NCBI RefSeq assembly: GCF_009720385.1
Contig: NZ_WARX01000020.1
Coordinates: forward strand, 62,001 to 126,000
Length of the DNA: 64,000 bases
Source of the DNA: Catellatospora vulcania
GTDB taxonomy: Bacteria > Actinomycetota > Actinomycetes > Mycobacteriales > Micromonosporaceae
Reading direction: 5' to 3'
Shown in pieces: positions 21,770-25,225 of this stretch. The notes under the pieces are model-generated. The model searched no databases and was not told the origin of the DNA. It worked only from the letters and a program-made list of their open reading frames with translations. A program made the translations under genes and the position numbers. The number at the start of each line of letters is the position of its first letter. Within the stretch, counting starts at the first letter, position 1.

Positions 21770-21964
21770 TGCGGAAACGGATTTCCGGGCCGAAAAAATG
21801 CGAAACCCGGGGGTACCGCGCGGATGCGCGGGCCGGCTGGACAAACCGGACATTCCCCCGGGAATCGGGTGGCTCCCTTGGATTCGCCAGGGCCGCTGAC
21901 ACACGGCCTCGACGCTCCAGTCGAACCTTCAGGTATCGACAGAAGTGCAGTCGATGACAGCCGC

Positions 21965-22003
21965 CTAGCGGGCAGCCACCTCACGTGTCCTGTAGCTACT
22001 CAA
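21965..22003 (-). CDS. Orphan 12-residue mini-ORF with exceptional ribosome binding site
   Basis: TTG 22003 to TAG 21965 encodes MSSYRTREVAAR. The start is picked only because an 18-base Shine-Dalgarno tract ends one base before it, with GGAGG 10 bases away. No gene follows on this strand; acnR converges on it, so it is not an ordinary leader peptide of a downstream operon. It could be a translated small RNA, a decoy that holds ribosomes, or a chance ORF. Confidence 0.4.
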   Translation of the reverse strand: MSSYRTREVAAR

Positions 22004-22004
22004 A

Positions 22005-22022
22005 GCTGGACCACCTCCTTTC
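22005..22022 (-). promoter_or_regulatory. 18-nt Shine-Dalgarno tract complementary to the 16S rRNA 3' end
   Basis: The minus strand reads GAAAGGAGGTGGTCCAGC. Against the usual 16S 3' tail (GCTGGATCACCTCCTTTC) it can form 17 Watson-Crick pairs and one G-U pair without a break. Normal sites in this window pair over 4-7 bases. Confidence 0.65.
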
Positions 22023-22106
22023 CCGTGTACCGCCGACATTAGCCACGAGATCCAGGGATCGACAAGATATTTTCTTCCGGGCATCCGGGCGCTACAGTGC
22101 CGCGTC

Positions 22107-22211
22107 ATGGGCGCCCTCAAACCTTGGCATCTGCTCCTCGGCGGCACCGTCTGCTGCGTCACCGTAGTGGTCCTCGCGCTGGTGCTGTTCCTGGTATTAC
22201 GTAAGAAATGA
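22107..22211 (+). CDS. 34-aa single-span membrane peptide coupled to ddaH
   Basis: ATG 22107 to TGA 22211, too short for usual gene calling. The product starts MGALKPWHLLLGG, continues with one strongly hydrophobic helix (TVCCVTVVVLALVLFLVL) and ends RKK, giving a single membrane span with a cationic cytosolic tail. The stop overlaps the ddaH start as ATGA, so the two are probably translated together. The opening MGALKPWH resembles the N-terminus of actinobacterial TatA proteins, but the amphipathic helix of TatA is missing. Two adjacent cysteines lie in the span. No ribosome binding site is obvious (leaderless or weak). Function unknown. Confidence 0.6.
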   Translation: MGALKPWHLLLGGTVCCVTVVVLALVLFLVLRKK

Positions 22212-22966
22212 GAACCGCCCTGGTCCGCGAGCCGAGTTCCCGGCTGGCCGACGGCATCGTCACCCACATCAGCCGCAGCGACATCGACCTGTCCCTGGCC
22301 CGCGCCCAGCACATCGCGTACGCCGACGCGCTGGCCTCGGCGGGCTGGGAGGTCTACCCGGCCCCGGCCGCCGACGAGCACCCGGACTCGGTGTTCGTCG
22401 AGGACGCGGTGGTCGTCGTCGACGACCTGGCCGTGCTGACCCACCCCGGGGCCGAGTCCCGCCGGGGCGAGATCACCGGCGTCGAGCAGGCCGTGCTGGA
22501 ACTGGGCCTGCGCACCGCGCGCATCGAGGAACCGGGCACCCTGGAGGGCGGCGACGTGCTCCAGGTCGGCACGACCGTCTACGTCGGACGCGGCGGGCGC
22601 ACCAACGCCGAGGGCATCCGGCAGCTGCGCAACCTGCTGGCGCCGCTCGGGCGCACCGTCGTCCCGGTGCCGCTGGGCGAGGTGCTGCACCTGAAGTCCG
22701 CGGTCACCGCGCTGCCCGACGGCACCTTCCTCGCACTGCCCCACCTGGTGCCGACGGGGCTGTTCCCCGCGGTGCGGCCGGTCGAGGAGGAGGGCGGCTG
22801 CCACGTGATCCCGCTCGGCGGCGACCGGGTGCTGCTGGCCGCGTCGGCGCCGCGTACCGCGGAACTGCTGGCCGATCTGGGGTACACGCCGGTGGTGGTG
22901 GACATCGGCGAGTTCGAGAAGCTCGAAGGCTGCGTCACCTGCCTGAGCGTCCTGGTCTCCCGCTGA
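22208..22966 (+). CDS. ddaH: Dimethylarginine dimethylaminohydrolase, 252 aa
   Basis: Amidinotransferase-fold enzyme (DDAH) that hydrolyses N-omega-methylated arginines to citrulline and methylamines. The active-site residues are visible: Glu65-Asp66 in FVEDAVVV, LEGGDVLQVG (Asp116), His161 in EVLHLKSAVTALPDG and nucleophile Cys245 near the end in GCVTCLSVLV. The length equals known bacterial DDAH, and the start overlaps the upstream membrane peptide by ATGA. A 47-bp gap separates it from the TIGR04222-like gene, so all may be one transcript. Related amidinohydrolases (arginine deiminase) are longer; the LEGCVTCLS ending favours DDAH. Confidence 0.92.
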   Translation: MRTALVREPSSRLADGIVTHISRSDIDLSLARAQHIAYADALASAGWEVYPAPAADEHPDSVFVEDAVVVVDDLAVLTHPGAESRRGEITGVEQAVLELGLRTARIEEPGTLEGGDVLQVGTTVYVGRGGRTNAEGIRQLRNLLAPLGRTVVPVPLGEVLHLKSAVTALPDGTFLALPHLVPTGLFPAVRPVEEEGGCHVIPLGGDRVLLAASAPRTAELLADLGYTPVVVDIGEFEKLEGCVTCLSVLVSR

Positions 22967-23013: not shown

Positions 23014-23940
23014 GTGGCGGACACCTGGGGCATCCCTGGCCCCACTTTCCTGATGCTGTTCGCGGTCGCCGCGGCGGTCGTACTGGTGGGCACGCTGATC
23101 CACCGGTCCCGGCTGTTCTCCGGCCCCGCGCAGGTCCGCGTGGACCAGCTGTCACCCCAGCACACCGCGTACCTCAACGGCGGGGCGACGCTGGCGGTGT
23201 ACTCCTCGCTGACCTTCCTGCGCCAGGCCCACGTGATCGAGGCCGACCAGCAGGGGCGGCTCACCCGCACCGGCGGCCTGCCGGCCGGCGGCACGCCGCT
23301 CGACGCGGCGGTGCTGCACGCCGTGGGCAACGGCACGCGGCAGAGCGAGCTGCGCCAGGACCGCTCGGTCGCCGAAGCGCTGAACACCCTCGACGCCGAC
23401 CTGCGCCGTGCCGGGCTCACCCTCGACAGCGGCGTGCTCGCCCGCGCCCGCCGCGGACCGCTGCTGCTGCTCGCCCTGTTCGCGGTGGCCGTGGCCCGGG
23501 TCGTGGCCGGGCTGGGCAACGACAAGCCGGTGCTGTTCCTGGTCCTGCTGGCGATCCCGGTCGGCCTCGTCGGCCTGGTGATGTTCCTGCGCAAGCCGCG
23601 GCGCACCCGTGCCGCCGACCGCGCGCTGCTGGCCGCCAAGCGGCAGTTCAACCACCTGCGGCCCAGCTCCCACCCCGCCTGGAACACCTACGGCCCCACG
23701 CAGACCGCGCTGGCCGTGGGCCTGTTCGGCACGGCTGTGCTGTGGTCGGCCGACCCCGCCTTCGCCGACGGCTCGGACATCCCCAACCTCGACGAGAGTG
23801 TCTACGGCCCGCGCTGGAACAACTCCGGCAGCAGCACGACCGGCGGCGACGGCGGCTCCACCAGCTCGTCCTGCAGCAGTGGCGGCTCGTCCTGTGGTGG
23901 CGGGGGTGGCTGCGGCGGCGGAGGCGGGTGCGGCGGATGA
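23014..23940 (+). CDS. TIGR04222-type membrane protein with Gly/Cys tail, candidate RiPP precursor, 308 aa
   Basis: GTG 23014 follows GAAGGAG by 5 bases. One membrane span lies at about residues 9-30; a soluble region follows with the family-like LNGGATLAVYSSLTFLRQAHVIE. Two more spans (about 150-195) come next. A mainly extracytoplasmic or cytoplasmic C-terminal part ends in a low-complexity tail of Gly, Ser and Cys. The tail has four regularly spaced cysteines (287, 294, 300, 306) separated by SSGGSS and GGGGG. This architecture fits TIGR04222-domain proteins, which as I recall often stand beside DUF692 genes. Stop and next start overlap as ATGA. I infer that the tail cysteines are modified by the next gene's enzyme. 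Confidence 0.82.
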   Translation: MADTWGIPGPTFLMLFAVAAAVVLVGTLIHRSRLFSGPAQVRVDQLSPQHTAYLNGGATLAVYSSLTFLRQAHVIEADQQGRLTRTGGLPAGGTPLDAAVLHAVGNGTRQSELRQDRSVAEALNTLDADLRRAGLTLDSGVLARARRGPLLLLALFAVAVARVVAGLGNDKPVLFLVLLAIPVGLVGLVMFLRKPRRTRAADRALLAAKRQFNHLRPSSHPAWNTYGPTQTALAVGLFGTAVLWSADPAFADGSDIPNLDESVYGPRWNNSGSSTTGGDGGSTSSSCSSGGSSCGGGGGCGGGGGCGG

Positions 23941-24776
23941 CGCCGCTGGCCGGGCGGGGCGTCGGCATCGGCTGGCGCCCCGAGCTCTCCGGCTTCGTCG
24001 CCGAACTGCCCGGCCTGCGCTTCGTCGAGGTCATCGCCGAATCGCTGCCGCACTCCGGTGAGCCGCCCGAGGCGCTGGCCCGGCTGCTCGCCGCCGGGGT
24101 GGCGGTGGTGCCGCACGGCGTGAAACTGTCCCTCGGCGGAGCCGAGCCCGTCGACCCGCACCGGGTGGAGCACCTGGCGCAGGCCGCCCGCGCCGTCAAC
24201 GCGCCGCTGGTCAGCGAGCACATCGCGTACGTCCGGGCGGGCGGTGTCGAGGCCGGTCACCTGCTGCCGCTGCCGCGCAGCCGGGAGGCCGTCGACGCGG
24301 TGGTGGCCAACGTCGTACGCGCCACCGCCGAACTCGACGTGCCGCTGGCCCTGGAGCCGATCGCGGCACTGTTCGAGTGGCCCGACGACGAGCTGACCGA
24401 GGCCGAGTTCCTCACCGAGATCCTGGAACGCACCGACGCGGCCCTGCTGCTGGACATCGCCAACGTGTACGCCAACGCGCGCAACCGCGGCGAGGACCCG
24501 ATGGACCTGCTCGACCGGCTCCCGCTGGAGCGCATGGCGTACGTGCACGTCGCCGGCGGCCGGATCCACGAGGGCCGCTACCACGACACGCACACCGACC
24601 CGGTGCCCGGCGAGGTCCTCGAACTGCTCGGCGAGCTGTGCGCGCGGCAGCGCCCGCCCGCCGTCCTGCTGGAACGCGACGGCCACTACCCGCCCGCCGC
24701 GGCGCTGCGCGCCGAACTCGACGCCCTGTCCGCCGCGACCGGCTACCCCGTGATCACGGCGGCGGCGGGCCGATGA
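23937..24776 (+). CDS. DUF692 (MNIO) multinuclear iron enzyme, 279 aa
   Basis: Member of the DUF692/MNIO family, TIM-barrel enzymes with two or three irons. Characterised members (MbnB, TglH) oxidatively modify cysteines of ribosomal peptides. Likely iron ligands are all present: Glu31/Glu35 region in RFVEVIAES, His60 in VVPHGVKLSLGG, Glu94-His95 in VSEHIAYV, Glu140 in LALEPIA, Asp173 and Asn176 in LLDIANVYANARN, His204 in YVHVAGGRIHEG, His216-Asp217 and His219, and Glu246 in LLERDGHYP. Length is normal. It overlaps both neighbours by ATGA, giving a tightly coupled precursor-enzyme-partner order. The Gly/Cys tail of the preceding protein is the obvious candidate substrate. The reaction is unknown. 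Confidence 0.9.
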   Translation: MTPLAGRGVGIGWRPELSGFVAELPGLRFVEVIAESLPHSGEPPEALARLLAAGVAVVPHGVKLSLGGAEPVDPHRVEHLAQAARAVNAPLVSEHIAYVRAGGVEAGHLLPLPRSREAVDAVVANVVRATAELDVPLALEPIAALFEWPDDELTEAEFLTEILERTDAALLLDIANVYANARNRGEDPMDLLDRLPLERMAYVHVAGGRIHEGRYHDTHTDPVPGEVLELLGELCARQRPPAVLLERDGHYPPAAALRAELDALSAATGYPVITAAAGR

Positions 24777-25225
24777 CCGGCGGTGCCGTGACCGGCGGTG
24801 ACCTCGCGCGGCGGCAGGAGGAACTGGTGCTCGCCCTGGTGGCCGGGGCCGCCACGCCGCCGGGCTTCGACGCCGCGGCGGTGGCGGCGACGCAGACCGC
24901 GCTGCTGCGCAAGCGGGCCGACGACGTCGCGCGCAGCTGGCCGCGCCTGGCCGAGTCGGCGGGCCCCGGGCGGTGGCCGCGGATGTTCTCGGCCTGGGCC
25001 GCGGGCCGCGCGCCGCAGGGCTCGCTGCGCGACGGCTGGGACTACGCCCGCGCCAACCCGCCGCGCGACCCCGCGGCCGCACGCGAACTCGCCCTCCGCG
25101 ACCTGCTGTGGGCGTACGACGGCACGACGGCTCCCCGCCCGCGCCGCGGCCCCGCCGCCCGCCTGCACGCGGCTGAGCTGCTCCTGCGCTGGCGCGGCCG
25201 CGCCCTCACCTACCGCCTGCGCTGA
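24773..25225 (+). CDS. Partner protein of the DUF692 enzyme (SCO6045-like), 150 aa
   Basis: Helical protein beginning MTGGAVTGGDLARRQEELVLAL, with a middle DDVARSWPRLAESAGPGRWPRMFSAWA split by Gly/Pro and a C-terminal ARELALRDLLWAYDG followed by an Arg-rich end. The repeated pattern of a short N-terminal helix, an SWP-type helix and a final LLWAYDG resembles the proteins that accompany DUF692 in Streptomyces (SCO6045-like). Its role may match the MbnC/TglI-type partners that hold the substrate peptide, though it has no clear sequence likeness to those. ATG 24773 overlaps the DUF692 stop by four bases. Arginine content at the end is high (PRPRRGPAARLHAAELLLRW-like). No catalytic motif is seen. 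Confidence 0.7.
   Translation: MTGGAVTGGDLARRQEELVLALVAGAATPPGFDAAAVAATQTALLRKRADDVARSWPRLAESAGPGRWPRMFSAWAAGRAPQGSLRDGWDYARANPPRDPAAARELALRDLLWAYDGTTAPRPRRGPAARLHAAELLLRWRGRALTYRLR

Follow-up and report, generated by a model that had tools for sequence, protein, structure and literature searches.

Known systems and the Catellatospora cassette

Passages of the survey by Antoine et al. 2025 (PMC12452194) describe more than 3,500 TIGR04222 proteins, mostly from Actinomycetota, and among them Ser/Gly/Cys tails and frequent MNIO (DUF692) neighbours. Subsets of these proteins are proposed there as MNIO substrates via the tail, and short MNIO partners are named "PME-type 2" and are structurally related to DUF2063. 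Examples are given from Micromonospora (WP_179806563, 300 amino acids (aa), and WP_091237309, 158 aa). In the same passages more than a quarter of the TIGR04222 proteins are without a C-proximal Cys, many clusters are seemingly without a partner gene, and the survey does not settle if, or in what way, TIGR04222 proteins undergo modification. The locus described here is a three-gene cassette in Catellatospora vulcania, found in a 64,000-nucleotide (nt) stretch of DNA (NZ_WARX01000020.1, positions 62,001–126,000 of the forward strand) that is termed the window.

Gene 1 (23014..23940, + strand) has a GTG start and encodes a TIGR04222 membrane protein of 308 aa, a putative MNIO substrate. Gene 2 (23937..24776, + strand) encodes an MNIO enzyme of 279 aa (DUF692, PF05114), and gene 3 (24773..25225, + strand) a putative MNIO partner of 150 aa that is PME-type 2-like. 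An original prediction, made from the DNA sequence without database searches, had placed ATGA overlaps of stop and start codons at both gene junctions, and these are exact (23937..23940 and 24773..24776, + strand). The hidden Markov model searches that it had proposed gave 139.9 bits with TIGR04222 for gene 1 (cut-off 43) and 268.5 bits with PF05114 for gene 2 (cut-off 25). In the genome carrying the cassette (8.8 Mb), MNIO and TIGR04222 each give a single match over the cut-off.

The window cassette has the same three parts as the clusters of Antoine et al., i.e. a TIGR04222 protein with a Ser/Gly/Cys tail, an adjacent MNIO and a short third protein. As passages of that survey already contain both the TIGR04222-MNIO-PME-type 2 clusters and the substrate proposal, the cassette is a member of a described kind, and the novelty implied by the original prediction is not supported. 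The present analysis adds evidence about the partner, about the ancestry and about an enzyme signature. A literature search, with most subscription journals outside its scope, turned up no experimental work on any TIGR04222 protein.

Among characterised systems, the nearest by MNIO are the bufferins and captophorins (fontiphorin and others, in passages of PMC12668002), which have in common with the cassette an MNIO with a helper gene, and Cys-Gly sites; the enzyme FonB is described there as preferring Cys-Gly, and thiooxazole products as absorbing near 305 nm. Gene 1 has no DUF2282 match, unlike the bufferins. Bufferin systems have a PME-type 1 partner with DUF2063, whereas gene 3 is not recognised as DUF2063 by Pfam. 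A bufferin-type precursor has an N-terminal Sec signal peptide; in gene 1, inspection of the first hydrophobic segment would speak against one.

MbnB-MbnC and TglH-TglI belong to the same superfamily as gene 2, and the ligand positions largely align (TglH). According to passages of PMC10214503, both MbnB and TglH need a partner protein, and their peptide substrates are recognised by a leader. These leader-bearing peptides differ from the polytopic membrane protein encoded here. A TIGR04222 protein in a Pseudonocardia "bacteriocin" cluster was suggested in 2016 to be a processed ribosomal product (PMC5183585); unlike in the window, the passage on that cluster names nucleases and a sulfur transferase beside it, with no MNIO among them.

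The favoured explanation

The explanation favoured here, with a probability of roughly 0.6, is that the cassette yields a post-translationally modified, membrane-tethered protein whose tail cysteines are oxidised by the MNIO-partner pair. The MNIO, in complex with the gene 3 product, would oxidise the tail Cys of gene 1 while the tail is in the cytoplasm. By analogy with the bufferin and captophorin enzymes, the product would most likely be 5-thiooxazole at C-G sites, and the finished tail would remain tethered to the membrane and bind a metal, perhaps copper. The separate parts of this scheme carry different weight. Sequence comparisons make it quite probable that the tail is an MNIO substrate, while thiooxazole chemistry on the tail Cys is given somewhat less than an even chance, and copper binding by the finished tail a lower one still.

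If the tail is modified, this would be oxidative chemistry of the type known from ribosomally synthesized and post-translationally modified peptides acting on an integral membrane protein, not on a short secreted peptide. A more speculative picture is that a branch of Actinomycete MNIOs may be dedicated protein-modifying oxidases that turn tail Cys into a row of metal-binding heterocycles, a membrane "metallophore brush". The tail would have evolved from a Gly-rich tail of the DUF2207 type, and the MNIO and its partner would act as an obligate unit, with the two fused into one protein in Streptomyces-like bacteria.

What follows directly from computation is presented below: the three linked genes, the tie between tail Cys and a neighbouring MNIO in Micromonosporaceae, the exclusive pairing of gene 3 with the MNIO and its fusion to it, and the intact ligand set of the enzyme.

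Linkage of TIGR04222, tail cysteines and MNIO

The family sample consists of 121 Micromonosporaceae genomes, and all TIGR04222 figures given for it rest on the matches listed, not on the full match set. A total of 142 matches were kept. One was not fetched (G113:C197) and one ran off its region (G104, L075), leaving 140 complete proteins. Matches below the cut-off were left out, as were two fragments of one copy in G101 (47 and 46.5 bits) and fragments in G032 and G104 that pass only with their neighbours. Tail Cys were counted in the last 60 residues, and copies cut by contig ends (G019, G116) were counted as non-adjacent.

An MNIO is present in 82 of the 121 genomes, TIGR04222 over the cut-off in 85, and both are present in 81. 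A TIGR04222 match lies within 6 kb on the same strand for 79 of 94 MNIO match rows (the 94 include two pieces of one gene in G057), and the nearest one is always upstream. The recurring co-occurrence of the three families that the original prediction had called for is found across the Micromonosporaceae. If the favoured explanation is true, an integral-membrane substrate would be the usual MNIO setting in this family, given these 79 of 94 rows among the matches listed.

Proteins that end directly before an MNIO all have tail Cys (78/78), with two or more in 77. Other TIGR04222 copies within 6 kb of an MNIO have tail Cys in 11 out of 12 cases. Where a genome has an adjacent as well as a non-adjacent copy (27 genomes), the adjacent one is richer in Cys in 20, poorer in five and equal in two. 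Four genomes have TIGR04222 without MNIO; their five tails have 0, 0, 1, 0 and 0 Cys. The same linkage is found in other lineages, i.e. in Nonomuraea and Tsukamurella records and in G170 and G354, two genomes from a different family within the order. G281, G302 and G354 each have a further TIGR04222 match outside the extracted set.

Some MNIOs lie away from TIGR04222. At four Micromonosporaceae loci (L188, L189, L192, L194) these have short upstream open reading frames with Cys-rich C-termini (TCNCYGSC, TCNCFGSC or TNCGCSC), which are perhaps classical short precursors. Near five of the Streptomyces-like cassettes (L177, L178, L179, L183, L184) no Cys-rich free peptide met the filter used, and a scan of some of the loci for free-standing tails mostly relisted known tails from internal starts. 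In Tsukamurella tyrosinosolvens (NZ_LR134462, L216:2034-3965) an annotated TIGR04222 protein of 643 aa holds two TIGR04222 stretches; the Cys tail of the first is in another frame, with stops further up, and the annotated length may therefore mislead.

Tail cysteines of gene 1

The gene 1 protein has four Cys, all in the last 22 residues and none elsewhere. The tail (23812..23937, + strand), which is the putative modified region, is Ser/Gly-rich and ends with CGG. Translation confirms the predicted Cys at positions 287, 294, 300 and 306. In Catellatospora sichuanensis, the nearest named relative found and the single relative given by a contig scan, the spacing of the four tail Cys is identical.

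The Cys had also been described as evenly spaced. This holds for the window protein, but even spacing is not conserved among 72 MNIO-adjacent proteins (the set extracted first; the later set has 78). The 72 tails, with the window protein included, have 1–9 Cys, most commonly four, and the gap between Cys is 1–19 residues, most commonly five. A conserved motif of evenly spaced Cys is ruled out by this range. A CGG ending is found in 63 of the 72 tails, the Cys flanks are GG and SS, and 233 of the 277 tail Cys directly precede Gly. A structure model of gene 1 from a two-sequence alignment was too poor for use (mean predicted local distance difference test (pLDDT) score 37.8).

The partner protein

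Gene 3 has no NCBIfam match, and no Pfam match at E-values up to 1. Of 73 loci, 70 have a homologue directly after the MNIO, and in 59 of these 70 it starts at −4 nt. The position and length of gene 3 would fit a PME-type 2 partner. A profile was built from alignment A1; the alignments A1–A3 were made from a selection out of the 73 loci (26, 26 and 25 sequences). This profile detects gene 3 in 81 of the 82 MNIO genomes among the 121 Micromonosporaceae (the exception is G073) and in none of the 39 without MNIO. In 246 genomes of the phylum it detects gene 3 in 11 of 14 MNIO genomes and in 0 of 232 others; the three exceptions (G175, G212, G217) have MNIOs with widely differing scores (137, 344 and 135 bits).

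The gene 3 domain is fused in frame to the MNIO C-terminus in all six MNIO-bearing genomes of the Streptomyces-like genus g48, which is taken to be Streptomyces. The fusions (L176, L177, L178, L179, L183, L184) measure 428–479 residues from the start of the MNIO match to the stop, with E-values of 2e-24 to 3e-22. In Streptomyces sp. BHT-5-2 the partner directly follows the MNIO in a separate, overlapping frame. The original prediction had noted a resemblance of the third protein to the companion of DUF692 in streptomycetes, and both arrangements bear this out. Three Micromonosporaceae genomes (G020, G058, G113) have MNIOs that carry a truncated version of the gene 3 domain. The fusion argues strongly for joint action of gene 3 and the MNIO.

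A partner gene is seemingly missing in many clusters of Antoine et al., going by passages of the survey, whereas here it follows the MNIO in nearly all loci and is fused to it in Streptomyces-like genomes. An MNIO-gene 3 fusion is not among 12 of 13 passages of PMC12452194 on fusions, chimaeras or Streptomyces. The near-universal and partly fused partner makes the published open question on TIGR04222 modification directly testable.

The relationship of gene 3 to DUF2063 was also considered. Weak DUF2063 matches occur in 3 of 26 gene 3 relatives (best 0.0039), and profile comparisons with DUF2063 are not significant. The cassette's own genome has no DUF2063 match. A structure model of gene 3 from a two-sequence alignment was too poor for use (mean pLDDT 52.7).

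The MNIO enzyme

The best NCBIfam match of gene 2 is BufB with 185.8 bits, which is below the cut-off of 310. The HvfB model gives 161.2 bits (cut-off 360) and the MbnB model 24.7 bits (cut-off 325). Residues H60, H95, E140, D173, H204, D217, H219 and E246, which we take to be the MNIO set of ligands for several irons, align with the DUF692 structure 3BWW and are invariant in 103 out of 103 aligned MNIOs. The same positions align with TglH, except for H60, which is one column off. This agrees with the original prediction, which had assigned to gene 2 all likely iron ligands of DUF692 enzymes.

In passages of PMC12668002, Asp249 of FonB is proposed as the catalytic base, and Phe250 and Arg16 are described as shaping the choice of residues around the Cys. 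By alignment, Asp248 is the gene 2 counterpart of FonB-Asp249, and Asp is found here in 103/103 MNIOs. Positions 249 and 15 would be the counterparts of Phe250 and Arg16, a mapping that we infer from alignments via 3BWW.

The MNIOs beside TIGR04222 have a common WRP...ERDG signature. Position 249 is Gly in 80 of 82 and position 15 is Pro in 78 of 82 of these enzymes, compared with one and none, respectively, of six bufferin-type MNIOs. The six Streptomyces-like fusions keep Trp-Arg-Pro and have Asp or Glu at position 249. A testable reading is that the gene 2 pocket may be opened to Gly/Ser flanks.

Relationship of gene 1 to DUF2207 proteins

Profile comparison shows that TIGR04222 and the C-terminal module of DUF2207 proteins are homologous (hhalign probability 95.65, E-value 1.1e-8, 195 columns). 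The Pfam model of this module, PF20990 (DUF2207_C), is weakly matched by 16 of 26 gene 1 relatives (best 2e-4), with no match for the window protein at E-values up to 1. For comparison, 18 DUF2207 proteins were taken from the 20 below-cut-off loci L153–L172 (L170 and L172 were left out). All 18 are over both Pfam cut-offs (PF09972 and PF20990) and come from genomes without an MNIO match.

The DUF2207 proteins have in common with gene 1 the membrane module and a Gly-rich C-terminal tail. They differ in carrying an extra N-terminal DUF2207 domain (18/18) and in the near absence of Cys from the tail (no Cys in 15, one in three). In the favoured explanation, gene 1 encodes a short protein related to the C-terminal membrane module of DUF2207, and its Gly/Ser tail appears to have gained Cys. 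The main text of the Antoine et al. survey (PMC12452194) makes no mention of DUF2207.

Alternative explanations

Several observations weigh against modification of the tail by this MNIO. Tail Cys are also found in 21 of 50 non-adjacent TIGR04222 copies, and in five of the 27 genomes with both kinds it is the non-adjacent copy that has more Cys (both among the matches listed). The genomes are relatives of one family and not independent, so that p-values from these counts would overstate the evidence. The Cys vary in number and spacing, thus no fixed recognition motif is seen. The tail also has no EGKCG site, unlike fontiphorin, oxazolin and gonophorin, in which such sites are described in passages of PMC12668002; its Cys have GG and SS flanks. 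TglH has Gln in the Asp248 column, which shows that Asp248 is not universal across the superfamily. Were the tail outside the cell, its modification would have to precede export.

The original prediction took the tail for the substrate, a view that loss of tail Cys beside an intact MNIO would contradict. Cys are kept in all 78 proteins directly before an MNIO, but four Streptomyces-like genomes with TIGR04222 over the cut-off downstream of the MNIO have one tail with seven Cys and three tails with none. Two further Streptomyces-like genomes have the MNIO fusion and no TIGR04222 over the cut-off, and two Micromonosporaceae loci (L190, L191) have an MNIO and a gene 3 homologue with no intact TIGR04222 gene in front. 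Because TIGR04222 near an MNIO can be Cys-less or missing, the tail need not be the sole substrate of this enzyme group. Upstream of the MNIO at L190 and L191 only short Gly-rich stretches were seen.

The likeliest alternative is that the tail stays unmodified and serves as a low-complexity tether with Cys or as a thiol metal site, and that the MNIO acts on another substrate or on the TIGR04222 protein outside the Cys. The three Cys-less copies near an MNIO-gene 3 fusion, the Cys tails away from MNIO, the loose Cys number and the published quarter and more of TIGR04222 proteins without C-proximal Cys (in passages of PMC12452194) would all fit. This is nevertheless considered unlikely: in the gene order of the window the link of tail Cys to MNIO is complete among the matches listed, the Gly-rich tails of the 18 DUF2207 relatives from MNIO-less genomes are nearly Cys-free, and the tail is the sole Cys-rich stretch in the three-gene unit.

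Membrane topology and position of the tail

A Kyte-Doolittle scan of gene 1 found three strong hydrophobic segments, with scan windows from residues 11, 150 and 173. These are segment 1 (residues 11–29, 23044..23100, hydropathy peak 2.60), segment 2 (residues 150–168, 23461..23517, peak 2.43) and segment 3 (residues 173–191, 23530..23586, peak 2.91), all on the + strand. They agree with the three membrane spans predicted originally; in addition there is a weak fourth segment (residues 228–246, 23695..23751, + strand; hydropathy 1.37 in the scan window from residue 233), followed by DPAFA. By inspection, segment 1 has no Lys or Arg before it and several after it, and the TIGR04222 match starts at residue 15 and includes segment 1. 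Both points would speak against an N-terminal Sec signal peptide.

In the 72 MNIO-adjacent proteins, the soluble domain has net positive charge at its borders with the membrane, and this places the domain in the cytoplasm. Passages of Antoine et al. put the tail and large domains outside the cytoplasm, which differs from the placement of the soluble domain by charge in the present analysis. The fourth segment is uncharged in 55 of the 72 proteins compared with 2 of 19 Cys-less copies, and the mean net charge around it in the 72 is +2.24 before and −2.07 after. In the Cys-bearing group this pattern would be compatible with a fourth span and with a tail on the outer side.

Other evidence would suggest an inner tail. 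The counterpart region of the fourth segment is charged in all 12 of the DUF2207 proteins (out of 18) in which a motif located it. A minimal form is found in Tsukamurella tyrosinosolvens (NZ_LR134459, L219:4904-5173), where a protein of 89 aa, with a single hydrophobic segment before an Arg-rich stretch and a tail of Ser, Gly and Cys, sits alone between the MNIO gene and a gene 3 homologue. This arrangement counts in favour of the proposed substrate role of the tail. The Arg-rich stretch after its sole hydrophobic segment predicts a cytoplasmic tail. No relatives of this protein were found in a plasmid collection.

The uncharged fourth segment and the charges around it could also be those of an internal signal peptide, in which case the tail would be translocated, cut after AFA and secreted as a bufferin-like Cys peptide of ~57 residues. 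Small residues at −3/−1 occur in 58 of the 72 MNIO-adjacent proteins vs 7 of 19 Cys-less and 10 of 18 Cys-bearing non-adjacent copies, as would be expected for such cleavage. The F-A pair is however kept in the Cys-less copies too (F in 18/19, A in 17/19), which marks it as ancestral and not as a site dedicated to cleavage. At −3, 14 of the 72 have D, E, Q, L, K or R, and the Tsukamurella minimal form predicts a tail in the cytoplasm. A secreted peptide therefore appears improbable, and the candidate for a dedicated signal-peptidase site after the fourth segment was downgraded.

That gene order and Cys tails are merely common by descent, with no functional link between tail and enzyme, is very improbable, for although all 121 genomes are from one family and are not independent events, the within-genome comparison favours the MNIO-adjacent copy by 20 to 5 among the matches listed, the same link occurs in Nonomuraea, Tsukamurella, G170 and G354, and gene 3 is fused to the MNIO.

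Surroundings of the cassette

Clustering of the neighbourhoods of 73 Micromonosporaceae TIGR04222-MNIO loci collapsed most open reading frames into one cluster, probably because of out-of-frame open reading frames in GC-rich DNA. The commonest recurring neighbours outside the cassette are a HAD-like gene and an ABC transporter gene. The former, a HAD-hydrolase-like gene named by sequence appearance, is mostly divergent and, in 52 of the 73 loci, is found ~2.5 kb upstream of the MNIO start; the latter is downstream of the MNIO in 34. Both are presumably ordinary neighbours of the cassette.

Scans for promoters, terminators and RNA families gave nothing within the cassette. Upstream of it, on the − strand at window positions 21795-22028, is a match to the Rfam actinobacterial small RNA Ms_IGR-5 (92.8 bits, gathering threshold 45). 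A dimethylargininase gene lies directly upstream of the cassette on the + strand (22208-22966; NCBIfam NF045660, 394.8 bits, cut-off 340), and an open reading frame nearly identical to this gene is found upstream of the cassette in Catellatospora sichuanensis (L034:4195-4953).

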